Origin: Nitrososphaerota archaeon
Lineage (GTDB): Archaea > Thermoproteota > EX4484-205 > JAAOZP01
Assembly: GCA_011605725.1 (NCBI GenBank)
Contig: JAAOZP010000011.1
Span: 62,001 to 126,000, forward strand
Direction of reading: 5' to 3'
Length of the DNA: 64,000 bases
Position numbers and translations under genes: made by a program. Shown piece by piece: positions 4,339-60,077 of this stretch (position 1 is the stretch's first letter; every line of letters begins with the position of its first letter). The notes beneath the pieces are model-generated. The model had not been told where the DNA came from. It saw only the letters and a list, made by a program, of their open reading frames with translations, and searched no databases.

Positions 4339-5859
4339 CTAAGCAACCGTGTAATCCGGAACCCTTTTCAACAGCATTCCCCCTATCGGTATCGGCGTGA
4401 GCCTTTGCGCTAAAGCCTTTGCTCGCTCCAGCTTAACCATGCTGTCGGCATAAATCGTAAACAGCTTATCGCTCTTCTTAACTTGGCTGCCCATTTTCTG
4501 CCAGATCACCATGCCCGCCCCCTTATCCCTGGGAGCCCCAGCCGCACGACATATCTGTATCACAGCAGCATTGTTAACCATTTGAACATACCCGTCCTCC
4601 CAAGCGGTAAAGTCATAAGTGTACCGGCCCACCTTAATATCGTCGGAAGTTATTTCAGCGTTACCGCCTTGAGCAGCAATAATCTCCTTAAGCTTCGAGA
4701 GGGCTTTTCCACTTTTCAAGGTTTCCTCAGCAAGCTCCTTACCCTTCCCCCTTTCAACTACCCCCGCCATCTCCAGGAGGATTCCAGCTAGGACGCAGGA
4801 CTTCTCAACCAGGCTTCTAGGCGCATACTTGCCCTCTAAAGCCATCAATGCCTCTCTGGCTTCCAGCGCGGGACCAACAGCTCTTCCCAACGGTTGTGAA
4901 CCGTAGGTTATGGCGCATTCAACCCTTATGCCAACCCTTCTCCCGAGCTCTATGAAGTCTTGGGCTAGGCTCCTAGCCTCGTCCTCCGTCTCAACCTTAG
5001 CCCCTTTCCCCGTCGGGATGTCTATCAGGAGAAGCTCGACGCCAGCAGCCTTCTTCTTAGACATCACTGAAGCGAGAACCTGAGGCTTGGGGTCGAGAGA
5101 GAGTGGATACTCGGCTCTTATTATCTTGTCATCAGCGGGAGCAAGGTTAACACTGCCACCCCATGCCAAGGTGCCTCCGATGCTTTCAGCGATAAACTTT
5201 ATCTTTTGAGCCGTTAGAGACACTGGGGCAAGCACCTCCATGGTGTCAGCTATTCCAGATGGGCTGGTTATTGCTCTCGACGATGTTTTCGGTATTGTAA
5301 CCCCGTTGGCTGCAACTATTGGAACAGTTAGCAAGGCATACTTGTTGCCGGGAACCCCTCCAATACTGTGGACATCAACAATGGGCGATTTATCGAAAAC
5401 AATGGTTTCACCTGTTTCAACCATCGCTTTAACCATTTCCGTCACCTCATCCATATCCATGCCACGCATCTCGATCGAGCTCACGTATGCGGAGAGCTCA
5501 ATGTCTGAAAGATTGTTCTCCACGATATCTCTAATAATCACGCGTATCTCCTCTCCGGATAGCTTTTGCCCTTTCATCTTCTTCTTAATATAGGCTATGG
5601 ATTGGGGTCTCTCGCCTGGGACCACGTTAACCGTATCGCCGTCCTTCAACCCTAGAGCCTTAGCGACCTCCGTGAAGACTCCTATCTCACCCCTGTTTAA
5701 CAGGGTTGAAGTGATATTCGCCACAGCCGTCAGGGATCCTTTCTCACAGTATATCCTTACGTGGTCAAGCGGATGGACTCCAAGCTCTCCTGCATCATCC
5801 GCGTTTAGAAGAACCTCGTAGGAACCCTGCTCAATGTCTATGAACCTTGCTTTAAACAT
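4339..5859 (-). CDS. deoA: AMP phosphorylase (archaeal thymidine phosphorylase-family)
   Basis: VDVHSIGGVPGNKYALLTVPIVAANGVTIPKTSSRAITSPSGIADTMEVLAPV; ~500 aa archaeal form with an N-terminal extension. Confidence 0.92.
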   Translation of the reverse strand: MFKARFIDIEQGSYEVLLNADDAGELGVHPLDHVRIYCEKGSLTAVANITSTLLNRGEIGVFTEVAKALGLKDGDTVNVVPGERPQSIAYIKKKMKGQKLSGEEIRVIIRDIVENNLSDIELSAYVSSIEMRGMDMDEVTEMVKAMVETGETIVFDKSPIVDVHSIGGVPGNKYALLTVPIVAANGVTIPKTSSRAITSPSGIADTMEVLAPVSLTAQKIKFIAESIGGTLAWGGSVNLAPADDKIIRAEYPLSLDPKPQVLASVMSKKKAAGVELLLIDIPTGKGAKVETEDEARSLAQDFIELGRRVGIRVECAITYGSQPLGRAVGPALEAREALMALEGKYAPRSLVEKSCVLAGILLEMAGVVERGKGKELAEETLKSGKALSKLKEIIAAQGGNAEITSDDIKVGRYTYDFTAWEDGYVQMVNNAAVIQICRAAGAPRDKGAGMVIWQKMGSQVKKSDKLFTIYADSMVKLERAKALAQRLTPIPIGGMLLKRVPDYTVA

Positions 5860-40274: not shown

Positions 40275-40375
40275 ACAGCATTATTGACTATTAAGAGTCC
40301 ATATAAGAATTTCCCGGGGATTATGGTTAAAGACGTTGAAACGCTTAAAAACAGATTCGGAGCCATGGTGACGGG

Positions 40376-41044
40376 TTGAAGATTGACCTGCATGTTCACA
40401 CTGTCTACTCAGATGGAAACGGAACTGTCAGGCAGGTTCTTGAGACTGCTAAAGCAAAGGGCTTAGACGGCTTAGCCATAACTGACCACGCTACTCTCCA
40501 AGGCTATTTTGAAGCTAAGAAATATTGTGGGGAAATACTTGTCCTACCGGGGTTTGAACTGAGCACGGATGCTGGCCACGTGCTGGTCATAGGCCTTGAA
40601 CATCTTCCACCTAGCAAGGATCGTTTAAACTACGAGTGGCTCGTTGAATGGGCTAGGGGTGAGGGTGGGTTAACTATTCTGGCTCATCCTGCTTTAAACA
40701 TAGGTAAGCTGGGAAGATGGGTTGATTGCAAAACTGATGCTGTTGAGGCTCTGAACGCTTCCTACCCTTTAAGCTTCTTCGTGAACAGGGGAGTGAAGAT
40801 CGCTAGTCGCCTTGGCATCCCAACAGTCGGAGGCAGCGACGCCCATTTTTCCATAAGCGTCGGAGACGCGCACACGGTTGTTGAAGCAGACAGCTTATGC
40901 TTCGAAGGTTTTTCAAGAGCTATTAGAAAAGGAAAAGTTGCTTTCGACGGCAGGCTTTCGCCATTCTCCTCCAGGGTAAGAATAGGGTTTAGATACTTGG
41001 CTTCGAGAACGTTTTTTAAAACCCTTTTTGAAAACAATCCTTAA
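40376..41044 (+). CDS. PHP-domain metal-dependent phosphoesterase
   Basis: KIDLHVHTVYSDGNGTVRQVLETAKAKGLDGLAITDHAT; VGGSDAHFS. Confidence 0.9.
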   Translation: MKIDLHVHTVYSDGNGTVRQVLETAKAKGLDGLAITDHATLQGYFEAKKYCGEILVLPGFELSTDAGHVLVIGLEHLPPSKDRLNYEWLVEWARGEGGLTILAHPALNIGKLGRWVDCKTDAVEALNASYPLSFFVNRGVKIASRLGIPTVGGSDAHFSISVGDAHTVVEADSLCFEGFSRAIRKGKVAFDGRLSPFSSRVRIGFRYLASRTFFKTLFENNP

Positions 41045-43852: not shown

Positions 43853-44089
43853 TCTGAAGATTTGAGAGTGGGCGTGTGGTTAAAAACTTCTCTCCCCCGG
43901 ATTCTTGAAACCAGTGTTAGCTTCAGGCGAGCTGGACTCGCGTTCCGCGTTCTTAAAACCATATGTTTATAAGGATTCTGGATTTTAGAAACACATGCGT
44001 GGAGTGAGGGAAAACAGGAAGACAAGAATACTCTGCAACCATTTTGCTCGAAAGCAGGCTTACCCGGAGGATTCTCCTCCTGATCCCCT

Positions 44090-45508
44090 TTGACGAGCAC
44101 AGGGCCTGCTTTTAAACCTGGCTACGCTCTCCCAAGTGAGGTTTTGGAGAAGCTCAGGAATCTGCTTGGCGAGAGGTTTTCAACGGGAGATGCTGACCTT
44201 CTCTCCTACAGTCACGATTACTGGCCAATATCTCTGCAATGGGTGCTTAAAGGGAGCTTCCCCTGGGTGCCCAGCGCTGTCGCTTGGCCGGAGAACACGT
44301 TTGAAGTCCAAGAAATCGTTAAGACTGCTTACGGGAACAGTATTCCGGTCTACGCCTTCGGCGGGGGCTCAGGGGTTCTGGGCGGGACTGTTCCCGAGAA
44401 GGGAGGAATAGTTGTAGACTTGAAGAGGATGCGCTCAATCCGGCTCAACGAGGAAGACATGGTTGTCGAGGCCGAGGCTGGGGTTAACGGTTACTACTTG
44501 GAGAAGTATTTGAACAGCAAGGGTTACACGCTCGGCCATATTCCTCAATCCATCTATGTTTCAACCCTGGGAGGGTGGATTGCTACTAAAGCGACTGGAC
44601 AGTTCTCAACCAAGTACGGCGGCATAGAGGATATGGTTCTGGGGCTTGAGGCAGTCCTGCCTTGGGGGAGTGCAGTAACACTGCCGCCACATCCTAGAAC
44701 ATCAACCGGTCCGGATTTGAGAAGACTCTTCATAGGAAGTGAGGGTGTTCTAGGTATAGTTACCAGGGCCTGGCTTAAAACATGCATACTCCCGGAGGAA
44801 AGGGTTCTCCTCTCCTATGTTTCAGAAACCTTTGAAGAGGCTCTTGAATCCGTCAGGAGAATACTCAAGAGGGGTGCTAAGCCAGCTGTAGTGAGGGTTT
44901 ACGACGAGGCTGAGACTAAAAGACACTTCTACATGTTTGAAGAAGCATACGGCAGGATCATGACCGTGATCGTGGTGGAGGGGGACTCTGGAATTGCTGG
45001 GGCTGAGCGCAGGATTGTGGAGGAGGAGTTCAGAGGAAGGATGCTTGGAGAGGAGCCTGTGAAACACTGGCTTGAAACAAGGTTCATGGTTAAAGAGGCT
45101 TCCGAGTTTGCTCCGCTAGGGGTTGTTTTCGACACTATAGAGGTTTCAGTAGGCTGGAGCAGGGCTATGAGCCTCTACCGGAGCCTTGTTGAAGCGGTGC
45201 GGGCTGTTAAGGGGACGCTCTTCGCATCCGCGCATGCTTCACACTTCTATCCTCAGGGCGTCTGCTTCTACTTTACTTTCGCCGGAGTGCCTAGGGGCAA
45301 CCCGGAGAAGTATTACAACGACGTGTGGGAAGCCGCGATGAAGACTACTCTTGAAAACGGCGGGTCGATAAGCCACCACCACGGCGTCGGCAGGCAGAGG
45401 AGAAGCTGGCTTAAGAATGAGCTTGGACCTGCCTTCAACCTTCTCAAAAAGGTTAAGACTGCTCTAGACGATAAGGGTGTGATGAACCCGGGGAACATGG
45501 GGTTGTAA
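44090..45508 (+). CDS. FAD-linked oxidase, alkyldihydroxyacetonephosphate synthase (AGPS)-like
   Basis: AFGGGSGVLGGT; GWIATKATGQFSTKYGGIEDMVL; HPRTSTGPDLRRLFIGSEGVLGIVTRA; C-terminal SISHHHGVGRQRRSW (AGPS HHH motif). Confidence 0.85.
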   Translation: MTSTGPAFKPGYALPSEVLEKLRNLLGERFSTGDADLLSYSHDYWPISLQWVLKGSFPWVPSAVAWPENTFEVQEIVKTAYGNSIPVYAFGGGSGVLGGTVPEKGGIVVDLKRMRSIRLNEEDMVVEAEAGVNGYYLEKYLNSKGYTLGHIPQSIYVSTLGGWIATKATGQFSTKYGGIEDMVLGLEAVLPWGSAVTLPPHPRTSTGPDLRRLFIGSEGVLGIVTRAWLKTCILPEERVLLSYVSETFEEALESVRRILKRGAKPAVVRVYDEAETKRHFYMFEEAYGRIMTVIVVEGDSGIAGAERRIVEEEFRGRMLGEEPVKHWLETRFMVKEASEFAPLGVVFDTIEVSVGWSRAMSLYRSLVEAVRAVKGTLFASAHASHFYPQGVCFYFTFAGVPRGNPEKYYNDVWEAAMKTTLENGGSISHHHGVGRQRRSWLKNELGPAFNLLKKVKTALDDKGVMNPGNMGL

Positions 45509-45509
45509 A

Positions 45510-46655
45510 ATGCCTGGGAAATGGGACTGGCTTAAGGATGAGCTGCGCGCATCCGGATTGGCTGGAGCCACCCCCCTCGTCATCAGGTTTATCAGCGGGA
45601 GGCTACGGGGGCCTGACGACCTTGTGAAGTGTGCCCTATGTCCAAACATGTGTCGCCACGCCTGTCCAGTGGGCATAGTTGACGGGAGGGAGACGACCTC
45701 GCCGGCTGGAAAGACTAGGGCGGCTCTCCTCCTGAGGCAGGGGAGGCTGCAGCCGACGCTGGAGAACGTTTCTCCGCTTTACACCTGCCTCTCGTGCAAC
45801 GCGTGCAGCGTCTGGTGTCCTTTCGGTTTTTCAGTCGCAGACCTTGTTAGGCCAGTTAAGGAGAAGGCTGCCGGCGGCGGAAGCATCTTCAAAGAGTTTA
45901 GAGAGGTTTTTGAAAACCTTGAGAAACACGGGTATGTATATGGAGAGCCTAAGCGTGAGGATTCAGGCTTGCACGGCGACCTGCTCTACTTAAGAGGCTG
46001 CACGCTGAGGGAGAAGCAGCCGGGCGTAGCTGAGAAGGCTGAGCATGTTTTAGAGGAGCTTGGCTACAGGCCTTTCACGATTGACGAGGCGTGCTGCGGC
46101 ATACCTGCCTACAACCTTGGGAACACTAGGCTCTTCAAGAGGGTTGCGGAGAAGCAGGCTGAGAAGATAAACTCTAGCGGCGCTGGAATAATCGTAGCCT
46201 CATGCCCATCCTGCGTATACGCTTACCGAGTCCTCTACCCTAAGCACGGGGTTAAGATTAATGCTGAAGTCAATCATATTGCAGAGTTCCTAGAGGACAG
46301 GCTGAAGGGTTTTAAAGGAGAAGGCAGGGTTGTTATCCACAACCCTTGTAAGCTAGCCTTTGCACTAGGGAAGCCCAAGGCCCTTTACAACACGCTCTCC
46401 AGCGTCGAGGGGCTCACCGTCAGGGAGCCGAGGAGAAGCGGAGGCGAAACATTCTGCTGCGGGTACGGTGGGAGTGCTGTTCCTCGTCTCAACCCTCAGC
46501 TGGCCCGCAGAATAGCCTTGGAGAGGGGGGTTGAGCTTACGGAGGAGGCTGAAACCATTGTCACAGCGTGCCCAACATGCAAGCTAGCTTTAGAGTCAAA
46601 CGGTTTCAAGGTTCTCGACGTAATGGAGCTTCTCCACTCTTTCACCAGTGGTTAA
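45510..46655 (+). CDS. (Fe-S)-binding oxidoreductase, GlcF/GlpC-like with two CCG domains
   Basis: CALCPNMCRHACPVG; CLSCNACSVWCPFG; EACCGIPAYNLGNTRLFKRVAEKQ; FCCGYGGSAVPRLNPQLARRIA. Confidence 0.88.
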   Translation: MPGKWDWLKDELRASGLAGATPLVIRFISGRLRGPDDLVKCALCPNMCRHACPVGIVDGRETTSPAGKTRAALLLRQGRLQPTLENVSPLYTCLSCNACSVWCPFGFSVADLVRPVKEKAAGGGSIFKEFREVFENLEKHGYVYGEPKREDSGLHGDLLYLRGCTLREKQPGVAEKAEHVLEELGYRPFTIDEACCGIPAYNLGNTRLFKRVAEKQAEKINSSGAGIIVASCPSCVYAYRVLYPKHGVKINAEVNHIAEFLEDRLKGFKGEGRVVIHNPCKLAFALGKPKALYNTLSSVEGLTVREPRRSGGETFCCGYGGSAVPRLNPQLARRIALERGVELTEEAETIVTACPTCKLALESNGFKVLDVMELLHSFTSG

Positions 46656-46657
46656 CA

Positions 46658-48415
46658 ATGTTCACGCTAGACGATAAAGTAGCAAGCGTTTTAAAAAAGT
46701 ATCCTTACAATATTTCCTTCAGAGTAAGGGATAACATTGTTTTCCTCCAGGGAGAGGTTGACAGCCACATGGAGTGGGTTGAAATAGGGCTTTCCATAGG
46801 CAGGATAAGAGGGGTTGAGGGGGTTGTGAATAAGATAACGTGGAGAGGCGCCTCAGGGAAGGAGGCTAGAGAGGAGTGGAGAAGAAGGGTTTTCGAAGAA
46901 AAGAGGAACGCTGTGGTCGGAGAGTACGACGTGGTCATAATAGGCGGGGGAGTCGTCGGAGCAGCCCTAGCTAGAGAGCTCTCGAAATACGAGCTTAAAA
47001 CAGCTCTCCTGGAGAAGTCTACGGATATTGCTGCCGGAACCACTAAGGCGAACAACGGCATGATTCACGCGGGCGTGGAGCCCTCCAGGGGTACTCTGAA
47101 AAGAATGCTTAACGTAAGGGGGAACGCTATGTACGGTAAGCTTGCTGAGGAACTGGGTTTCAGGTTTAACCGGCTGGGCAGCCTCTGGCTGGTCACTCCA
47201 AGGACGCTGGCGTCGTACAGGAAGTATCTGCCGGGTCTGCTTTACAACCTGGTGTTGAAACACGTTTTTCCCTGGGTGGTTAAGATTAAAGGCTTGGTGA
47301 ACGGGGTTAGGAGCATTAAAATCATAAGGGGCCGAAGGATTTTCGAGCTCGAGCCGTTCGCAACCAGGGATGCTGTGGCTGCAGTCTACATTCCTTCCAC
47401 GGCTGTAGTCGACCCGTATGAGGTGGCTGTTGCCCTCGCGGAAAACGCTGAGGCTAACGGTGTTGAGATTCATCTAGAGACTGAGGCCGTCGGCTTCATC
47501 AAGGATGGTAGTGTCATCAGGGGAGTCGTAACCAATAAGGGGGTTTTCCTATGCAGATACGTCGTAAACTCCGCAGGGCTTTACGCTGACGAGGTTGCTG
47601 CACTAGCCGGCTCAGAGGAGTACACTATCCACCCGAGGAAAGGAGTACTCCTGGTTTTTCACAGGGACACCGGGGTTTTCACCCGCCACTGTCTGGCTGA
47701 GATCATTCTCCCTCAGGATCCATACACCAAGGGTGGGGGTATAAACCCTACTGTCCACGGGAACGTGCTCTGGGGGCCGACGGCGGTCGAGGTCCCGGAT
47801 AAGGAGGACACGTCCGTTACAAGGGAGGAGATAGAGCATGTCTTGAACAAGTACTCAGGCATAGTTCCCGGGTTTCCGAGGGACAAGGTGATAAGGTATT
47901 TCGCAGGCGTAAGGGCGGCGACATTCACAGAGGACTTCGTCATAAGGCCTGCCAAATGGGTTAGGAACCTCCTACACGTAGCCGGAATACAGTCGCCCGG
48001 GCTCGCCGCCTCACCAGCCATAGCGGAATACGCTGTCGAGAAGCTGAGGGGAATGGGGCTGAGGCTCAAGCCGAAGACGGGCTTCAACCCCAGAAGGAGG
48101 CCAATGCCGAGGGCAGCCGACATGAGCCTTGAGGAGCTTGAGGAGAAGATAAGGATGGACCCCGCGTGGGGCAGGATCGTGTGCACCTGCGAATTCGTCT
48201 CAGAAGCTGAGATCGTGGAGGCTGTTCGAAGAGGCGCTAAGACCCTCGACGCTGTGAAGAGGCGTACTAGGGCAGGGATGGGGGAGTGTCAAGGGAGCTT
48301 CTGCACGCTTGAAACAGCTCTCATCCTGTCTAGGGAGACAGGCGTGCCTTTGGACATGCTTCTTAAGGAGGAGGGTAGGCTGTTCAACGGCTACGTCAGG
48401 GGTGAGCAGCCGTGA
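46658..48415 (+). CDS. FAD-dependent glycerol-3-phosphate dehydrogenase-like oxidoreductase with N-terminal BON-like and C-terminal BFD-like [2Fe-2S] domains
   Basis: N-term FRVRDNIVFLQGEVDSHMEWVEIGLSIGRIRGVEGVVNKITW (BON-like); YDVVIIGGGVVGAALARELSKYELKTALLEKSTDIAAGTTKANNGMIHAG; C-term CTCEFVSEAEIVEAVRRGAKTLDAVKRRTRAGMGECQGSFC. Start ATG 46658. Confidence 0.88.
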   Translation: MFTLDDKVASVLKKYPYNISFRVRDNIVFLQGEVDSHMEWVEIGLSIGRIRGVEGVVNKITWRGASGKEAREEWRRRVFEEKRNAVVGEYDVVIIGGGVVGAALARELSKYELKTALLEKSTDIAAGTTKANNGMIHAGVEPSRGTLKRMLNVRGNAMYGKLAEELGFRFNRLGSLWLVTPRTLASYRKYLPGLLYNLVLKHVFPWVVKIKGLVNGVRSIKIIRGRRIFELEPFATRDAVAAVYIPSTAVVDPYEVAVALAENAEANGVEIHLETEAVGFIKDGSVIRGVVTNKGVFLCRYVVNSAGLYADEVAALAGSEEYTIHPRKGVLLVFHRDTGVFTRHCLAEIILPQDPYTKGGGINPTVHGNVLWGPTAVEVPDKEDTSVTREEIEHVLNKYSGIVPGFPRDKVIRYFAGVRAATFTEDFVIRPAKWVRNLLHVAGIQSPGLAASPAIAEYAVEKLRGMGLRLKPKTGFNPRRRPMPRAADMSLEELEEKIRMDPAWGRIVCTCEFVSEAEIVEAVRRGAKTLDAVKRRTRAGMGECQGSFCTLETALILSRETGVPLDMLLKEEGRLFNGYVRGEQP

Positions 48416-49653
48416 GGGACGCCACGGTGATAGGAGGGGGGCCTTCAGGTCTGGCTGCAGCCGTATGGCTTGCGGAGAAGGGTTACGACGTAGCGGTCGT
48501 CGAAGTGATGGGGGAGCTCGGCGGGATGTTGACGCAGTGCATTCACGATGGCTTTGGAACAAGGGTTTTCGGAGAAGCCCTTTCGGGGCCAGAGTTTTCA
48601 GAAAGGCTTGTGAAAAAGGCCCGGTTGCTCGGGCTCAGGACGTTTCTGAATACCTACGTGAAGGAGGTTAGGATCGGGAAGGAGTTTAAAGAGGTTGTTG
48701 CAGTCAGCCCGGCGGGGGTTCAGAGGCTTCAGACTAGGGTGATAGTCTACGCGATAGGCTGCAGAGAGAGGAACGGTTTTGAAATAAGGCTTGGCGGAGC
48801 AAGGCCGGCAGGGGTCTACACGGCTGGAATGGTTCAGAGGCTCGTAAACCTGTACGGGGTTCTCCCGGGGAGGAGGATCGTGATAATGGGCGGCGGCGAC
48901 GTCGGCATGATTGTAGCTAGACACCTCCACCTGGAGGGTGTGGAGAGCATCCTGATGGTTTTCCCAGAGGCTGGCTTCGCAGGGCTTCCGAGGAATGTTC
49001 AACAATGCATTCTAGACTTCGGAATCCCGTTCAGGCCCAGGACGGTTGTGAAAAAGGTAATCGGGAAAGAGAGGGTGGAAGGAGTCGTCTTAACCAGGGT
49101 TGATGAAAAGTGGAACCCTGTTGAGGGGACTGAGGAATTCCATGCTTGCGACACTGTTGTCCTCGCCCTAGGCTTAGTGCCCTACACCGGGGAGCTTAAG
49201 CTCGGGGTTAGAATGGATCCTGCAACCAGAGGCCCTGAGGTGAACGAGTTTTTCGAAACCAGTGTGCAAGGGGTTTTCGCCGTGGGGAACCTCGTCCAGG
49301 TTTTCGACTATGTTGACGACGCTTTTGAAACCGCATGCATAGCTGCCAGGGGTGTGGAAAAGTATTTGAACAGCGGGTTGAAGACGGCTCCGATAAGGCT
49401 TTCCCCAGGGGAAAACGTTAGGATGCTTACACCCCAGAGGGTTGAATGGGTTGACGATGCGGACGTGCCGGTGTTCCTGAGACCGGCTGTTGAGAAGGCT
49501 AATGTACGCATAGTGGTGAGGAACAGGGAGGGAAGGGTCCTCGGAGGATTCTTCAAGAGGTATGTTAGGCCTTCTACGCTTGAGAGAATAGAGGTTCCCA
49601 GAAGCATGCTAAGCAACCTGCAGGAGGTTTCGATAGATATTGCAGAGGATTGA
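48412..49653 (+). CDS. NAD(P)/FAD-dependent oxidoreductase
   Basis: ATVIGGGPSGLAAAVWLAEKGYDVAVVE; IVIMGGGDVGMIVARHLHLEGVE; GVFAVGNLVQVFDYVDDA. Confidence 0.88.
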   Translation: MRDATVIGGGPSGLAAAVWLAEKGYDVAVVEVMGELGGMLTQCIHDGFGTRVFGEALSGPEFSERLVKKARLLGLRTFLNTYVKEVRIGKEFKEVVAVSPAGVQRLQTRVIVYAIGCRERNGFEIRLGGARPAGVYTAGMVQRLVNLYGVLPGRRIVIMGGGDVGMIVARHLHLEGVESILMVFPEAGFAGLPRNVQQCILDFGIPFRPRTVVKKVIGKERVEGVVLTRVDEKWNPVEGTEEFHACDTVVLALGLVPYTGELKLGVRMDPATRGPEVNEFFETSVQGVFAVGNLVQVFDYVDDAFETACIAARGVEKYLNSGLKTAPIRLSPGENVRMLTPQRVEWVDDADVPVFLRPAVEKANVRIVVRNREGRVLGGFFKRYVRPSTLERIEVPRSMLSNLQEVSIDIAED

Positions 49654-50002
49654 GCTTCTCTGCACCCGGTGCCCCAGGGGCTGCCTTCTAAGGGTTACTG
49701 CAACAGGGAGCAGAGTGGCTGTGGAGGGTAACGAGTGTCCAGTTGGCGAGAAGCACGGGGCCGAGGAGGCTTTGAACCCTAGGCGGACCGTCTCGACAAC
49801 TGTTAGGATAATTGGCGCGAGGCTTCCACGCCTTCCAGTAAGGACTTCTGAGCCGGTGTTGAAGAATAGGGTGAGGGATGTTGTTGCTGCGCTTAAGAAC
49901 ATTGCAGTAGAGGCCCCGGTTAAGGCGGGTCAGGTAATTCTTAAAAACGTTGCTGACACTGGAGTAGACATCATAGCTGAGAGGGATATGGAGAGGGCTT
50001 AG
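49640..50002 (+). CDS. DUF1667 family protein
   Basis: LLCTRCPRGCLLRV...GNECPVGEKHGAEEALNPRRTVSTTVRI...VRTSEPVLK. Confidence 0.85.
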   Translation: MQRIELLCTRCPRGCLLRVTATGSRVAVEGNECPVGEKHGAEEALNPRRTVSTTVRIIGARLPRLPVRTSEPVLKNRVRDVVAALKNIAVEAPVKAGQVILKNVADTGVDIIAERDMERA

Positions 50003-50003
50003 C

Positions 50004-51506
50004 ATGAGCTATTTTCTCATACTGGATGTCGGAACCACCAACGTGAAGGCGCATGCTTTTTCGATTAATGGTGAAAACCTGCTTGAACTAGCGGAGAGGC
50101 TTCGGCCAAGCTATCCTAGGCCTGGATGGGTTGAAGAAGACCCGATGGACTTCATCATCAGGATTAGCAGACTCGTCGACATGTTTTTCGAAAAGCTTGG
50201 GAAACCGCTTGGAATAGGCTTGACAAACCAGCGGAGCAGCACCGTCTTATGGAGCAAGAAGTCTGGGGAGCCTCTTTACAACGCGATCACGTGGCAGGAC
50301 ACTAGGACCAAGGATATTGTAGAAGAGTTTTCCTCAAGGTTTCTAGTAAGCATGGGGAGGACACTGGGCAAGGCTTTCAACCTTCTCTCTAAGGCTTTTC
50401 CACCTTTAAAGGAGACAAGCAGGGGAGCCTACTTTGTTACACTTGCATACGTGTCGTTCGGAACAACACATTCCTCCATGCACCTAAGATGGCTCATCGA
50501 CAATGTTCCAGATGCGAGGCGCGCCGTTGAAAACGGTGAGGCTGTTTTCGGAACGATAGATTCATGGATCGCTTGGAACCTTACTGGCAGACATGTAACC
50601 GACTATACTAACGCGAGTGCCACAGGCCTGTTCGACTCTTTCAGCATGAAATGGAGCAGGAACATTTTAAGCATCGTAGGGGTTCCGAGAAGCATTCTTC
50701 CAACAATAGTTCCTAACGATGCTGCAATAGGCAGGGTTAAGGATTACGATGTTCCTCTTCTCACAATGATAGCTGACCAGCAGGCCTCACTTTACATGGC
50801 GGGTGTTTCCAAGGGTGTTGTGAAGATGACGAGCGGCACCGGAACATTCATAGATATGAATGTTGGGGAGAAGTGTATGGCTGGAGCGAGAGGACTCTAC
50901 CCGTTGATTGCACTCGCCACCAAGCGTAGAAACCTTTACCTGCTGGAGGGGAATGTTCTAACCTCAGGCTCAACGCTAGACTGGCTTATTGAAGTAGGGC
51001 TTATGAAAGACTATTCTGAGATACGTGAAGCCTTCGAGAAAACGGGGGAGGGCGGAATAGTGTTCATCCCCGCTCTCTCCGGGCTCGGAACACCCTATGT
51101 GAAGCCTGATGCAACAGGCATGATCCTTGGGATCACGAGGGGAACCAGGAGGGAAGACCTGATCCGAGGGGCTGTTGAGGGCGTGGCTATGCGCTGCGTG
51201 GAGATACTCGAGTATCTTGAGAAAACAACTGGAATAAGGGTACAGCGCGTAGTAGCCGACGGCGGGCTCTCTAAGAGCGACGACTTCCTCCGGACTGTTG
51301 CAAACTATTCTTCAAAGCTTGTCTTGAGACCAGTACACCTGAATGGCTCCGCCTACGGGACCTACATGCTGTGTAAGAACATATTGCTCGGAAAGGATCC
51401 TGTGGAAGCATGGGAAGAGCCTGCTGTCGAGAAGGCTTTCACCCCGGTTGAACCCAGGGGGGAGCTTATGGCACGCTGGACCAGAGCTTTGAGGAGGCTT
51501 CTTTAA
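50004..51506 (+). CDS. FGGY-family carbohydrate kinase (glycerol kinase-like)
   Basis: LILDVGTTNVKAHAF; GLTNQRSSTVLWSKKSGEPLYNAITWQDTRT; GTIDSWIAWNLTGRHVTDYTNASATGLF; VADGGLSKSDDFL. Confidence 0.88.
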   Translation: MSYFLILDVGTTNVKAHAFSINGENLLELAERLRPSYPRPGWVEEDPMDFIIRISRLVDMFFEKLGKPLGIGLTNQRSSTVLWSKKSGEPLYNAITWQDTRTKDIVEEFSSRFLVSMGRTLGKAFNLLSKAFPPLKETSRGAYFVTLAYVSFGTTHSSMHLRWLIDNVPDARRAVENGEAVFGTIDSWIAWNLTGRHVTDYTNASATGLFDSFSMKWSRNILSIVGVPRSILPTIVPNDAAIGRVKDYDVPLLTMIADQQASLYMAGVSKGVVKMTSGTGTFIDMNVGEKCMAGARGLYPLIALATKRRNLYLLEGNVLTSGSTLDWLIEVGLMKDYSEIREAFEKTGEGGIVFIPALSGLGTPYVKPDATGMILGITRGTRREDLIRGAVEGVAMRCVEILEYLEKTTGIRVQRVVADGGLSKSDDFLRTVANYSSKLVLRPVHLNGSAYGTYMLCKNILLGKDPVEAWEEPAVEKAFTPVEPRGELMARWTRALRRLL

Positions 51507-51507
51507 A

Positions 51508-52916
51508 TCAGTTTTCAGCATGTTTAAAGTAGACAGGGTTCGTCAAAGCGAAGACGGTGTCGTCCTCCCCAAGTTTGACGGAATACGGGTCTGAGTACCA
51601 GCCCAGCTCAGCCCTTATAAACATGCAGTTCTGCTTAACCCTGAGCTTCTTCACATGCTTGAAGGCTTTTCCATCAATACGGATTGTTTCCTCCACTCCT
51701 TGAGAAGTTATCAGTCTCAGCACGGCTCCTTCCCCGTCCTGGGCTTCAGCCGTGATTTCCACCTCCTCTTCACCGTTCACGTTAACCACGTCACCGGTTT
51801 CAAAGACTCGTGGACCAGAGTAAGCCTTCAACTCTAGAAGCGGCCCGTTTAGAGAATGAGATATGAATACCCTGCCCTGTTTAACGGAGCTTAATACACT
51901 CCTTATAGAGAGAGAGTTTACCCGTATCCACGTAGTCGGTTCGCTAAGCCTGATGAAAGAATTCTCCGCACCATGATAGTCGCTACCGCCTACGCTGTCA
52001 CCTTAAGACCCTCGCTCAGCAAGCTATGCCACCATGCAAGAGATTCCCAGTTCTTCAAAAACCATGGGCCGTTCCAAACTTCCACAGCGTCGAAACCCCT
52101 TACTTCTTTAAACTGGAAGTCGCAACCTATGCAGAGCTCTCCGAGGTCCCTAGGGTGGTCAACCGATACTAAGAGGCCTCTGCTGTGAGCCTCGTTGATC
52201 AGAGAAACAAAGTCCTCCCGCCTCCTCCTTCTGAAGTCAAACCAATCTCCTCCCCATATGTTTAAGTGCCCGCGGTACGTGGTTACTTCCACTCCAGGTA
52301 TTAAAAGGACAGGCGGGTCCTTGATTCCCAGAACCTCGTAAAACTGGCTTCGCGTATTGTGGTCAGTTATAGCTATGTAGTTCAGGTTCTGTTCAAGAGC
52401 CATGTCAACCAGTTCAGGGATACTCTGCTTCCCATCGCTATGATGGCTGTGAACATGTAAATCCCCCTTTATCCATCCTGAGGCTAAGGCTTGCTTCCGC
52501 TTGGGCCACTTTAGAGAGTGCTCTTCAAAACCGTGACCCGTGGAAACAGCTTCTCCAAGCCTAAAAGCACTCGCTAAAACCCTGTACTTGCATCCGTCGG
52601 GCGGTATTTTAGCCAGACCTAGGATTATTGACCATGCTCCAGGAGGGATCTCGCCGGCAACATACCCTGGGGTAGCTGCCTCAACGGATATTGTGAACTT
52701 AGGCTTGTTCGAGCCACTCCAACCCCTGAACAATCCTTTCGGGTCTATTATGCCTATGTCTAGGACACACTTCGGTCCTCCCTGGTATTCGTACGAGACC
52801 TCTATGGCGTCGCAGGCCTGGGGAAGGTTGAACGTTAAGTACTTGTAGTCATCTTCATCCTTGTCTCTGGGGGTTAACACTCCTTGAAACTCCCATCTTA
52901 GAACTTCCTTCCTCAA
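51508..52916 (-). pseudogene. PHP-domain (CehA/McbA-like) metallohydrolase gene interrupted by a single-base frameshift near 51993-51997
   Basis: ORF 51990-52916 ends ...GLKVTA*; a -1 shift gives GGSDYHGAENSFIRLSEPTTWIRVNSLSIRSVLSSVKQGRVFISHSLNGPLLEL, which runs in frame into ORF 51508-51831 (KAYSGPRVFETGD...). Confidence 0.85.
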
Positions 52917-53000
52917 GCTACTTAATTCCTGATGCAGGCTGGATTTAAACCCGCCTCCGCAAAAAACATTGTTAAATAGCTGGCAAAATTTCCCTGCTGG

Positions 53001-54059: not shown

Positions 54060-57000
54060 ATGATGATATTAAACACATGCCGCATATTCGTTAGGCGTTT
54101 TGGAAAAACATGGGCAGGAGTACTGCTCGTAAGCATGATGCTCCTAGTCGTGCTCTCAATGTTGCCAACATCCCTGCATACTAGTGCAGTACCCCCCAGC
54201 AGACAACCCCCCAGTATTACGATTAATACTGTTACTCAGGACGGTAATCTTTTTACCGTCAAAGGGGTTGCTAGCTTCAGCGTCCCTGCTGGCCAGACGA
54301 GTCAATACCATGTTCAAGTGGTCTGGGAGCATAACGGTAGTGTTGTCTTTCAAAACGATTATGCAGAGATCCCCCCGTTGAAAGACCTGGGTGAAGAAAG
54401 ATACGAGTATGATTTTGCTGATTCTAGAACGCTGAATACTGGCGGGGAATGGACAATCAGGGCTAGACTCTACCATGTGAAACCTCCCGGGAACGATAAT
54501 CAGGCAGATGCTTCTACGAAGATCATTTTCACAACTTTTATGGTGACCATTACCACTAAGCCGGAAGGATTAAAAATAGCTGTGGACGGGGAAGTCTACA
54601 CGTCTCCGCAAACCTTTGCTTGGCTAAACGGCTCTAAGCACACTATCGGCACCTTCTCCCCGCAGTCTGAAGGAGACACGATTTACACGTGGGTTTCTTG
54701 GAGCGACGGCGGTGAAATAAGCCACATGGTGACAGCAGTAGGCGACGCCATCTACACAGCATTCTTCAAGAAGCAGTATCTTGTGTGCTTCAACCAAACG
54801 GGTCTTGACAGTTCTGCAACCGGGGTTATTGTAACGGTTAATGGTTCATCTAAAAGCTATGACAAACTGCCTTTCAGCAACTGGTATGATGAGAACGATT
54901 GGATCAGCTATAGTTATGCTGAAACAGTGAATAGCTCTCAAACAGGGAAAAGGTTCAAGCTTAACTATGTCACTGGACCAGCCTCGCCTTTCCAAGTCTC
55001 TTCATTCACGCTAGTGATTGGCAGCTACACGCCTCAATACCTTCTGACTGTTGAAACCGAGCCTGACGGCTTAACAATTATTCCTGGTGGCGGATGGTAT
55101 GATGCAAACTCGTTAATCATTTTAACAGCGCCGGGAACAATACCGGTTTCACAAGGAATCCAATACAGGTTCAGCCACTGGAGCATAGACGGGGTTTCTC
55201 AAGGCATGGGGGTCAACCCTATTACGGTGAGCATGAACACGACTCATACTGCAACAGCCCACTATGTTCTTCAATACTATCTGACGGTGGAATCTCCATA
55301 CGGGGCACCAAGCCCGGGCAGCGGATGGTTTGACGCTGGAACAAGTATAACAGCATCAGTCACCTCACCCTGGCCTCCTGACTCTGCAGACACCCGGAGT
55401 GTTTGCACAGGATGGGTAGGCACAGGAAGTGCCCCGTCCTCTGGAACCAATACTGAAGTGTCTTTCACTATTAATGCGCCCTCAAGCATAACCTGGAGCT
55501 GGAAAACCCAGTACCGCGTCGCTTTCATCCAGACAGGTGTTGACGTCGACTTCACCGGGGTAGTGATGACTATTGACGGTATCGGCCACGGTAGGGAGGG
55601 TCACGCCGCCTGGTATGATGTTGGAGCAAGCATCGACTTCAACTTCACGGGACTCCTGGTTGTTGCAGTCAACCAGAAACGATACGTGTTGACTAGCGTC
55701 AACGCTTCCACACCCTTGATTGTTACAGGCCCGCTTACCGTCATGGGCAGCTATAGGACACAGTATTACTTGACGATGATCACGAGCCACGGTACAGTAA
55801 GCCCCGGCGACGGGTGGTTTGACGCTGGTTCAACCGTGGAGATAACCGCTGCCCTGCCTCCGGTTGTCCAGGGTGAACGCTATGTTTGGATGGGATGGAC
55901 AGGGACAGGAAGCGGGTCATACACCGGTATGCAGAACCCGGCTCAAATAACCGTTAACAGCCCGATTAAAGAGTCAGCCTCATGGAAGCATCAATACTAT
56001 CTGGCTGTGAACACGCCATACGGCACTGCTGGCGGCGAAGACTGGTATGATGAGGGTTCAGCCGCTTACGCTACAGTAGCCCCGCTAACGGTTGACGGGC
56101 CGGATGGCGTAAGGTATGTCTTTTCACACTGGAGTGGAGATGCTTCAGGGACTGCTTCAACTTCAGACCCGATTACGATGAATGCGCCGAAGACGGCGAT
56201 TGCCATCTGGAAGACTCAGTACCGAGTTGTGTTCAACCAGAACGGTTTAGATGAAACAGCTGTTGGAACCGTTGTCACTGTCAACGGCTCAGAACATATG
56301 CAGAGCAACCTGCCTTTCACAACATGGGTGGACAGCGGTGCTTCAATCAACTATGGCTTTGAAAGCATTGTTTTAACCAGCGACCCCGGTAAGAGGTTTA
56401 GGCTAAACAATGTGACTGGGCCTGAAACACCGTTTACTGTTACTGGTCCCGTAACGGTTGCTGGAAACTATGTCACTCAATGGCGGGTCGTGTTCACTGT
56501 AGATCCACCCGGTTCAGGAACAACCGTGCCCTCTGGAGCCGGCTGGTATGACGCAGGGATACGGTTCAGCATATCTGCTGAGGCTAATCCTGGGTTCTCG
56601 TTTTCAGAGTGGACTGTGAACACCTCATCCATAAATATCGCCGACACTTCGTCGCAGCAGACCAGTGTGACAGTAAATGGTCAAGGAACCGTCACAGCAT
56701 GCTTCACCATTTTCTACACCGTCTCTTTCACTCAAATAGGCTTGCCAACCGGGGTTGAGTGGAGCGTTACTTTCAACGGGGTGACGAAATCCTCTACGTC
56801 GAACACTATTGTTTTCAGCAATGTTCAAACCGGAGACTACGCTTGGAGCACGCTAACGCTTATTCAATTAGATTCTGGAACAAGATACTTAGCGTCACCC
56901 TCATTCGGAACACTAAGCGTGCCGTCGCAGCTGACGCAAACGATAAGCTACACTGCCCAGTATAGGGTTGAAATATCATGGTCTGGGCTTGATGCTGAAG

Positions 57001-60000
57001 CCAGCGGCGGGAAAGTGGTCATCATCACGGTAGGCGGCACGGTTTTCAGCAGGAATGTGGAAGACGCTTTCTACGAGGAGTGGGTTAATGCTGGAGCAAC
57101 AGTAAGCTATGCTTTCGAGGAAACCTTGTCTACAGCAATGTCGGGGAAAAGGTTTAGCCTCCACCATGTATCAGGCACTTCGGCAAGCTTCTCCAACGAC
57201 TTCGGTCCCATTTCAGGACCAGTATATGAAACAGCATACTATAAAGCTCAATACTATATTACTGTAATCAGTGACTACGGCAGCCCAACTTCCTCAACAT
57301 GGGTTGACGAGGGGACCAGTTTCACCGCCTCGGTGACAAGCCCGGCTGAAACCATGGTCAACCAGCACCAATGGGTCTGCACAGGCTTCAAGGTAGATGA
57401 GAATCCTGTTCAAGAGGGTTCGAGCTACACGTTTGTAAACGTGCAGACGCCGCACACCATAGTGTTTTACTGGAAGAAACAGTTCTGGATCCAGGTTAAC
57501 AGCAACCATGGTTCTCCAACACCCTCCCAATGGGTGGATCAGGGTGGAAGCCTTATGGTGAGCGTAACCTCTCCAACCGACGAGTCTGAAGGAGTAAGGT
57601 ATAGGTGTAAAGGCTACACTATAGATAGCAACCCGCCTGTTGAAGACGGGAGCACAAGCCACTTTTTCAGTGACGTTCAGAGTGCTCACACGATTACTTT
57701 CAACTGGATCGCCCAGTACAAGGTTACTTTCTACACTAATCCTGTTCAGGGGACTGTAACGGTTCGGGGAGTAGTTAAGAATAATGGTGAAAGCGAGTTT
57801 TACGATGATGGGGAATCAATCCCGATTACTGCGAACCCTCCCTCTGGCTACTGGTTCTCACGCTGGACAGTAACCGGCGGAGTCGCTGTAGACAACTATG
57901 GGAGTCAAACGGCAATTATGATGGTGAGCAGACCAGGCAGTCTTTCAGCAATATTCGTCATAAACGCTGTCTCAATAACAATCACTTCCAGCCCTGTTAC
58001 TGGAGTAGGCTTCATCAAGGTTGACGGCGTGCCCTACAATACTCCGGTAACTTTCACATGGGTAACTGGGACGACCCACGTGCTGGAGGCGGTTTCAATC
58101 GTGCCTGGGGCAACAGGCATTAGGTATGTATGGAAAAGCTGGAGTGACAGCGGGGCTCAGATGCATGTCTACACTGTCCCCAGCATGTCTGAGACAGTGA
58201 CAGCATGCTTCTCAACCCAGTATTATCTGACGGTGATTTCACCGCACGATACTCCAGGAGGCTCAGGATGGTATGAGGAGGGCTCAATCGCGTATGCAAC
58301 GCTTGAGACCAGAATTGTTGTCGAGAACGGTGTGCAATACGTGTTTACAGGCTGGAGTGGAGACGCTTCCGGAACAAGCCTTACGAGTAACCCGATAATG
58401 ATGAACGGTCCGAAAACCGCTGTGGCGAACTGGGCAACTTCAGCATACACGGTGACTCTCGACAAGAGCCCGAGGCAAGGAGTGATCACAGTTGACGGTG
58501 TTGTTTACACGAGTCTTCCGGTAGTGCTCAACTGGGTTCCAGGATCTTCTCACACGGTTATGGTTCCCAGTATTGAAGAGGCGGGAGGCACAAGGTATGT
58601 TTTCAGAGAATGGTCAGACGGCTCGACACAGGCTAGTAGAATAATCGTCGCTGAGAAAACTGGAGCAGTCTATGTCGCCTACTACAACGTGCAGCATAGG
58701 CTAACGGTCTACTCTGACCACGGGCTGACCACGGGCTCAGGATGGTATGACGAGGGTGTTGAAGCAGTTTTCTCCGTAACACCAACCATAGTGAGAGACG
58801 AGACAGAGGGAGTGGAGTACACGTTTAAAGGCTGGGTTGGAAGCGGGGCTGGAAAACACTACACCGGGCCGGATAATCCTGCGCGAGTCATAATGACTGG
58901 GCCTGTTGAGGAGAAAGCAGAATGGGAGCCTTCAATGTACTGTTTAAAAGTTGTCAGCGAGTATGGAGACCCGTATGGAAGCGGCTGGTATCCTGTAAAC
59001 TCTGAAGCACGGTTCGGAGTAAACACGCCTGTTAACCATGGTAACGGCACGATGAGAGTCTTCTTAAACTGGTTTGGAGACATAAGTCTCAGGGAGCCTG
59101 TTGGAACCCTGATTATGGTTAGGCCGTATACTGTAATAGCCAACTGGGACACTCAATACTTAGTGGTTTACAATACGACTGCTCCAAACGGTGTTTTACT
59201 ATCTGTGCCAGGAGTGCCTCAAACATTGGCACCGGGCTTCAACGTTTACGCGCAGTATTACTCAGCAGGAAGCAGGGTTAAAATCGGGCCGGCGCCCGGA
59301 ACCGTGTACGCGACTGAGGATACAAGGTATTGTTTCGAAGGCTGGATGATAAATGGGGAACCGGTCTCTTCCGATTCGAACCTAGACTTTACTGTGAATA
59401 AGCCTCTGCACATATCCATGACATATGGAACCGAGATACTCTTGACTGTAAACGTGGTAGGGGCGAATCGCAACTTCACTGTGAAACTTACGGTGGAGAA
59501 GAGCCCAGCCTACGTGCTTGACATCACGCCCTTATCTCCCTTTAAAGAATGGGTGAAGAAAGACACTGGCTTAACCCTCACCGTTTCCAGCCCGAACAAG
59601 ATAGGCCGTGGAGAGTGGGCTGTTTTCAGAGAATGGTCTGGAGACGCTCAGGGAAGTCAGAGAATAATCTCGTTGAAAGCTTCGAGACCAATAACGGTGA
59701 ACGCAGTGTTCTTCGCGGTCAACCCGGTTGCAGAATCAATACCCTACTCGCTGTTAACGGGCATAGTGTCGATAGTTCTTTCACGTTTAATACGGAGAAA
59801 ACGTGCAGAAGAACCCTTGGAACACCGGAGCTATTCGCCAACCCTGGGAATAGTGTCGCTGACTGCTGTGTTAACCGTATCAATAATAGTGAGCATCAGC
59901 GTAGCCATGGGCTACGGGATAAACGTTGCTGAGCTTCCAGACTTAGAAAACTGGGCCGTATTGTTCACCGGGGTTGAGGCAATCTTCTTCCTGGTCGCGA

Positions 60001-60077
60001 CACTGCTTGTTACAAGGCGTTCTTACCCGAGGAAGATGGAGATCCCAGTCATCTATCCGAACCCCTACGGGATTTAA
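54060..60077 (+). CDS. giant multi-modular surface protein (2005 aa) with signal-like N-terminus and C-terminal TM segments
   Basis: N-terminal hydrophobic helix TWAGVLLVSMMLLVVLSML; about 21 modules of roughly 75-95 aa ending in TQY/KQY/AQY; C-terminal TM helices followed by TRRSYPRKME. Confidence 0.9.
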   Translation: MMILNTCRIFVRRFGKTWAGVLLVSMMLLVVLSMLPTSLHTSAVPPSRQPPSITINTVTQDGNLFTVKGVASFSVPAGQTSQYHVQVVWEHNGSVVFQNDYAEIPPLKDLGEERYEYDFADSRTLNTGGEWTIRARLYHVKPPGNDNQADASTKIIFTTFMVTITTKPEGLKIAVDGEVYTSPQTFAWLNGSKHTIGTFSPQSEGDTIYTWVSWSDGGEISHMVTAVGDAIYTAFFKKQYLVCFNQTGLDSSATGVIVTVNGSSKSYDKLPFSNWYDENDWISYSYAETVNSSQTGKRFKLNYVTGPASPFQVSSFTLVIGSYTPQYLLTVETEPDGLTIIPGGGWYDANSLIILTAPGTIPVSQGIQYRFSHWSIDGVSQGMGVNPITVSMNTTHTATAHYVLQYYLTVESPYGAPSPGSGWFDAGTSITASVTSPWPPDSADTRSVCTGWVGTGSAPSSGTNTEVSFTINAPSSITWSWKTQYRVAFIQTGVDVDFTGVVMTIDGIGHGREGHAAWYDVGASIDFNFTGLLVVAVNQKRYVLTSVNASTPLIVTGPLTVMGSYRTQYYLTMITSHGTVSPGDGWFDAGSTVEITAALPPVVQGERYVWMGWTGTGSGSYTGMQNPAQITVNSPIKESASWKHQYYLAVNTPYGTAGGEDWYDEGSAAYATVAPLTVDGPDGVRYVFSHWSGDASGTASTSDPITMNAPKTAIAIWKTQYRVVFNQNGLDETAVGTVVTVNGSEHMQSNLPFTTWVDSGASINYGFESIVLTSDPGKRFRLNNVTGPETPFTVTGPVTVAGNYVTQWRVVFTVDPPGSGTTVPSGAGWYDAGIRFSISAEANPGFSFSEWTVNTSSINIADTSSQQTSVTVNGQGTVTACFTIFYTVSFTQIGLPTGVEWSVTFNGVTKSSTSNTIVFSNVQTGDYAWSTLTLIQLDSGTRYLASPSFGTLSVPSQLTQTISYTAQYRVEISWSGLDAEASGGKVVIITVGGTVFSRNVEDAFYEEWVNAGATVSYAFEETLSTAMSGKRFSLHHVSGTSASFSNDFGPISGPVYETAYYKAQYYITVISDYGSPTSSTWVDEGTSFTASVTSPAETMVNQHQWVCTGFKVDENPVQEGSSYTFVNVQTPHTIVFYWKKQFWIQVNSNHGSPTPSQWVDQGGSLMVSVTSPTDESEGVRYRCKGYTIDSNPPVEDGSTSHFFSDVQSAHTITFNWIAQYKVTFYTNPVQGTVTVRGVVKNNGESEFYDDGESIPITANPPSGYWFSRWTVTGGVAVDNYGSQTAIMMVSRPGSLSAIFVINAVSITITSSPVTGVGFIKVDGVPYNTPVTFTWVTGTTHVLEAVSIVPGATGIRYVWKSWSDSGAQMHVYTVPSMSETVTACFSTQYYLTVISPHDTPGGSGWYEEGSIAYATLETRIVVENGVQYVFTGWSGDASGTSLTSNPIMMNGPKTAVANWATSAYTVTLDKSPRQGVITVDGVVYTSLPVVLNWVPGSSHTVMVPSIEEAGGTRYVFREWSDGSTQASRIIVAEKTGAVYVAYYNVQHRLTVYSDHGLTTGSGWYDEGVEAVFSVTPTIVRDETEGVEYTFKGWVGSGAGKHYTGPDNPARVIMTGPVEEKAEWEPSMYCLKVVSEYGDPYGSGWYPVNSEARFGVNTPVNHGNGTMRVFLNWFGDISLREPVGTLIMVRPYTVIANWDTQYLVVYNTTAPNGVLLSVPGVPQTLAPGFNVYAQYYSAGSRVKIGPAPGTVYATEDTRYCFEGWMINGEPVSSDSNLDFTVNKPLHISMTYGTEILLTVNVVGANRNFTVKLTVEKSPAYVLDITPLSPFKEWVKKDTGLTLTVSSPNKIGRGEWAVFREWSGDAQGSQRIISLKASRPITVNAVFFAVNPVAESIPYSLLTGIVSIVLSRLIRRKRAEEPLEHRSYSPTLGIVSLTAVLTVSIIVSISVAMGYGINVAELPDLENWAVLFTGVEAIFFLVATLLVTRRSYPRKMEIPVIYPNPYGI
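54540..59720 (+). repeat. tandem degenerate protein-coding repeat array (several module subtypes)
   Basis: By-eye segmentation at (T/K/A)QY junctions; recurring GSGWYDEG, WSGDASGTS.TSNPI.MN.PKTA.A.W, and FNQ.GLD..A.G.V.TVNG signatures. Confidence 0.85.

Follow-up and report, generated by a model that had tools for sequence, protein, structure and literature searches.

The window, a stretch of 64,000 nucleotides, is part of a 180-kb contig in an assembly of 2.2 Mb (20 contigs, 93% complete). On its minus strand, at 51508-52916, lies a gene of the PHP metallohydrolase type whose two halves are in different frames. Starting from the TTG at 52916, the first frame encodes 308 amino acids, ending in ...LSEGLKVTA, and stops at a TAG (51992-51990); across the break the minus strand reads ...GGT CTT AAG GTG ACA GCG TAG GCG GTA GCG.... 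One base back, the frame continues as VGGSDYHG... and is open as far as a TGA (51510-51508). Compared with intact orthologues (see below), the Ala codon of VTA/VGGSDYHG is one base short, the gap falling after C51994 and before G51993, and this brings the TAG into frame. The features of the gene are:

51990..52916, minus strand: N-terminal half, with the N-terminal beta domain and the PHP motifs HVHSHHSDG, TDH, GVEVT and DHP (Pfam PHP, PF02811)
51993..51994, minus strand: one-base deficit relative to orthologues, from the DNA alignment; the Ala GCN codon keeps two of its three bases
51508..51993, minus strand: C-terminal half in the -1 frame, with VGGSDYHG (the last PHP metal-binding motif) and the C-terminal beta domain, up to the TGA at 51510-51508
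52003..52005, minus strand: TAA of the downstream (-1) frame, which together with the TAG at 51992-51990 confines any frameshift to 10 nt (GGTGACAGCG)
52944..52951, minus strand: TATA-like box TTTAAATC upstream of the TTG at 52916, read by eye; putative promoter element

The start at TTG 52916 is matched by a TTG at the equivalent place in the orthologues, and boxes comparable to TTTAAATC could be read by eye upstream of the gene in all three of them. The original prediction had placed VGGSDYHG in the other frame, open to 51508, and this holds; the open reading frame at 51508-51831, through which it had followed this frame, begins past the motif. The first ATG, GTG or TTG of the downstream frame is the TTG at 51831, 3' of VGGSDYHG. 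With no standard start ahead of the motif in that frame, neither of the two conventional ORFs encodes it.

The gene faces a plus-strand glycerol-kinase-like gene (50004-51506), the two stop codons being one base apart. This kinase, of the FGGY type, is the last of six plus-strand genes (44084-51506), after an FAD-linked oxidase, a CCG/4Fe-4S protein, a DAO protein with a BFD [2Fe-2S] domain, a pyridine nucleotide-disulphide oxidoreductase and a DUF1667 protein. Its best match is glycerol kinase, with 346 bits where the curated cut-off is 590, and the cluster looks like a glycerol-3-phosphate-type oxidation operon. On the other side, 54060-60077 encodes a repeat protein of 2005 aa that carries a putative membrane anchor towards its end; next come a winged-helix protein, a peptidase of family C25 (gingipain-type) and a transglutaminase-like protein, and the block is kept in the related genome G004.

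Family membership and the last metal-binding motif

An intact orthologue from the same genus spans the whole of the NCBIfam model NF038032 (CehA/McbA family metallohydrolase) with 216 bits (cut-off 80), whereas the window copy is interrupted. Its N-terminal half aligns with positions 1-172 of 315 (148.6 bits, cut-off 80) and its C-terminal half with positions 173-315 of 315 (60.1 bits, by itself below the cut-off of 80). These matches tile the model end to end, and the halves are those of one CehA/McbA-type PHP metallohydrolase. The tiling, together with a DNA alignment against three congeneric orthologues, bears out the original prediction of a PHP-domain metallohydrolase split by a one-nucleotide frameshift, and adds a family name to it: judged by sequence, the gene is a member of CehA/McbA (NF038032). 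Characterised members of this family hydrolyse carbamates, e.g. carbaryl and carbofuran (PMC8292978), but nothing at the window supports such a substrate.

All the PHP metal motifs (HxH, TDH, E, H and SDxH) are present in the window DNA, and the orthologues carry all five in one polypeptide. In the window the SDYH lies past the TAG in another frame, which makes the gene a broken member of the family and not a working one. Histidines important for catalysis have been reported for both CehA and McbA (PMC8292978). In the orthologue, D326 and H328 both lie 3' of the break and are invariant in 34 sequences. Its AlphaFold model (mean pLDDT 87.9, pTM 0.87) resembles the solved PHP proteins 3e38, 2anu and 7ug9, with E values from 1e-11 to 7e-7. 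As the break falls inside strand 320-324 of this model, ahead of D326 and H328, the truncated product would end before the final conserved motif of the PHP site, and from what is known of PHP enzymology the truncation should abolish activity. A second, distant PHP gene (PHP + PHP_C) at 40349-41041 adjoins an amidohydrolase and is kept in the same three congeners.

Intact orthologues at the same locus

In three genomes of the same genus (G003, G004 and G006) the gene is one uninterrupted frame of 480-487 codons, in which the junction reads ...RVTAVGGSDYHG... (RITAVGG in G006). The DNA alignment with these orthologues (mean column identity 88%) has a single gap in the window sequence at the junction. 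The orthologue codons there are GCT, GCG and GCT, against GC in the window, so that the base said earlier to be missing from a GCN codon is indeed the one that the relatives have. Identity to one 487-codon open frame is 73% over 305 residues and 73% over 156, on either side of the break, and such a match of both halves to a single frame is far beyond chance; over the congeneric orthologues it is 70–73% for the N-terminal half and 73–76% for the C-terminal half. The orthologue records, with identities measured against the G004 protein as query, are two Candidatus Brockarchaeota archaeon MAGs (100% and 87%) and one Crenarchaeota MAG (85%).

Gene order is also kept in G004 and G003, where an FMN-reductase-like gene, the PHP gene, the convergent glycerol-kinase-like gene and the redox genes upstream of the latter follow one another. 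In G006 a frame of only 42 codons matching the C-terminal part of the kinase (L028, G006:C123, 3900-3995) lies beside the intact PHP gene, and the kinase thus seems to have been lost there. No orthologue of the PHP gene was found in two other congeners, G005 and G007 (each about 92% complete), and the enzyme therefore seems dispensable and its loss tolerated in the genus; the flanking genes are likewise without close orthologues in these two genomes.

The wider family is equally uniform. An alignment-based search gave 487 relatives, and 80 of these were retained. In 40 of 40 family members looked at, among them the three congeners, Ignisphaera, Anaerolineae and Paenibacillus, GGSDxH is in frame with HxH. 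Such stops as occur within the tblastn-joined spans of relatives are 3' of GGSDxH, near the protein end. Orthologues ending naturally at KVTA ahead of a separate downstream gene had been named at the outset as the observation that would tell against a frameshift; all three congeners and all 40 relatives are continuous here. With every relative checked whole, the most likely account is a gene broken only recently, or an error of one base in the assembly, rather than a novel way of reading a gene. A search seeded with the single window protein gave no confirmed match in the genome contigs; the window's own genome yielded distant PHP paralogues but no second intact full-length copy, and the exact junction DNA was not found in the viral contigs searched.

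Translation across the break

Whether the break was an error, a recent pseudogene or recoding had been left open. Mutation and error remain only partly separable, but recoding is now unlikely on account of the frame overlap, the RNA folding and the relatives. Programmed -1 ribosomal frameshifting (or +2 hopping) would yield the full-length enzyme, and the continued conservation of both frames speaks for it. It has been demonstrated for one archaeal cellular gene, fucA1 of Saccharolobus solfataricus (PMC8211752), which resembles the present case in that an archaeal enzyme is encoded in two frames offset by -1 and has full-length homologues elsewhere. However, the fucA1 frames overlap by 40 bases, and the gene has rare codons, a slippery heptamer and a putative stem-loop (PMC8211752); at the window site the overlap is 10 nt, without a heptamer, and the RNA structure is unremarkable.

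Within this overlap, GGTGACAGCG before the TAG, no heptamer of the form X-XXY-YYZ occurs, which agrees with the remark made originally that no slippery site is evident; the only ones in the ORF are GGGTTTC, about 100 nt upstream, and AAAGGGG, about 480 nt upstream, both outside the overlap. A -1 shift would need GTG, ACA and GCG to re-pair with GGT, GAC and AGC, and none of these codon pairs re-pairs well. In pseudoknot-free folding, neither the RNA around the site nor that following it is more stably folded than shuffled sequences (z of 0.60 and -0.06). No relative shares the frameshift (one frame in all three congeners and in all 40 relatives), and we regard programmed frameshifting at this site as very improbable. 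The same very low probability attaches to the idea that the full-length enzyme arises by a -1 shift of a non-canonical kind, at a stop codon that lacks a classic slippery site, which would be a second type of archaeal frameshift recoding.

Conservation of the C-terminal half would also be expected if the enzyme worked as two separately translated parts. The half has no ATG, GTG or TTG before 51831, which would leave the last metal motif untranslated, and none of the 40 relatives examined is split, so that a functional two-gene enzyme is, if anything, a shade less probable than frameshifting. Lowest of all we place read-through of the stop, e.g. by pyrrolysine, for which TAG is the archaeal codon. 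Translation continuing past this TAG keeps to the wrong frame and meets the next stop 23 codons on; the halves cannot be joined in this manner, and read-through was rejected as a source of the full protein.

Selection, assembly quality and the origin of the lesion

Compared pairwise with the orthologues, the window gene has a dN/dS of 0.16–0.21 for the N-terminal half and 0.19–0.24 for the C-terminal half; the intact orthologues among themselves give 0.12–0.25. On the window branch it is 0.17 (0.11–0.25) for the N-terminal half, against 0.18 between intact orthologues, and 0.26 (0.14–0.48) for the C-terminal half, against 0.14 (0.09–0.22) in orthologues, with overlapping intervals. By these ratios both halves still show purifying selection, with any relaxation at most recent. 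The share f of the branch spent neutrally by the C-terminal half comes to about 0.1 from the point values and about 0.37 from the upper end of the interval, by our own arithmetic with the constrained value set at 0.17; with so small an f the lesion must be young, or else the living cell does not have it. For synonymous changes, divergence along the window branch (gene 51511-52916) is 0.42 for the C-terminal half and 0.95 for the N-terminal half, a difference of about half that may be noise.

The second of these alternatives, that the contig lacks one base through a sequencing or assembly error while the gene of the living cell is intact, is a serious possibility, although the less probable one. 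Such an error would yield an identical picture in the assembled sequence: both halves look fully constrained, without clear relaxation in the C-terminal one, and there is no second lesion elsewhere in the gene. In a metagenome assembly, especially a polished long-read one, an indel left over in about every 320 kb is plausible. Against an error, the break does not lie in a homopolymer, a mild point in favour of a real mutation, and among 284 genes of contigs C3 and C7 that could be compared with relatives (322.6 kb, one hit per locus) the PHP gene has the only frameshift, so that indels are not common in this assembly. A real genome may ordinarily have one gene in about 300 broken.

The reverse comparison, over 320.9 kb of G004, gave three candidate frameshifts, one of them clear on base-level inspection; that a related assembly has between one and three frameshifts over a similar length lends the error some weight. 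The clear case is a one-base frameshift in G004 itself (L157, G004:C15, about 5576-5582), the counterpart of which (C3:158516, 329 aa) is intact in the window's genome. A first, looser survey had given 13 candidate queries; those inspected other than the PHP gene resembled antisense shadow ORFs, a divergent N-terminus or a boundary between two genes, and were set aside.

The explanation that we favour, and hold to be probable, is that a one-base deletion recently inactivated the CehA/McbA-type PHP metallohydrolase gene of this hot-spring archaeon of the Brockarchaeota group. The missing base puts the TAG in frame after residue 308. The protein would then break off within one of the late strands of the PHP domain, directly ahead of the invariant SD-x-H that completes the metal site. 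This truncated protein would be inactive and may not fold, and the downstream part would not be translated as a functional unit. With selection on both halves until recently and the gene absent in some congeners, a dispensable enzyme may have been lost only a short time ago. At the locus there is a disrupting lesion, with intact orthologues at the syntenic position, as in a pseudogene. The phenomenon is an ordinary one: one copy of a hydrolase from a known family is interrupted, and nothing points to recoding.

A close parallel is the chitinase of Pyrococcus furiosus (PF1234/PF1233), also an archaeal enzyme split by a one-nucleotide indel and encoded by a single gene in Thermococcus kodakarensis (PMC3575233). 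There, however, the change is an insertion, confirmed by resequencing and with its effect shown genetically (PMC3575233), whereas the change described here is a deficit, read from the assembled sequence. A real deletion would mean that a dispensable hydrolase was lost very recently; an error would allow a rough estimate of the assembly's indel rate. For annotation some caution is due, as gene callers will list a truncated PHP protein of 308 aa and perhaps a hypothetical one of 107 aa where the lineage had one CehA/McbA-type enzyme.
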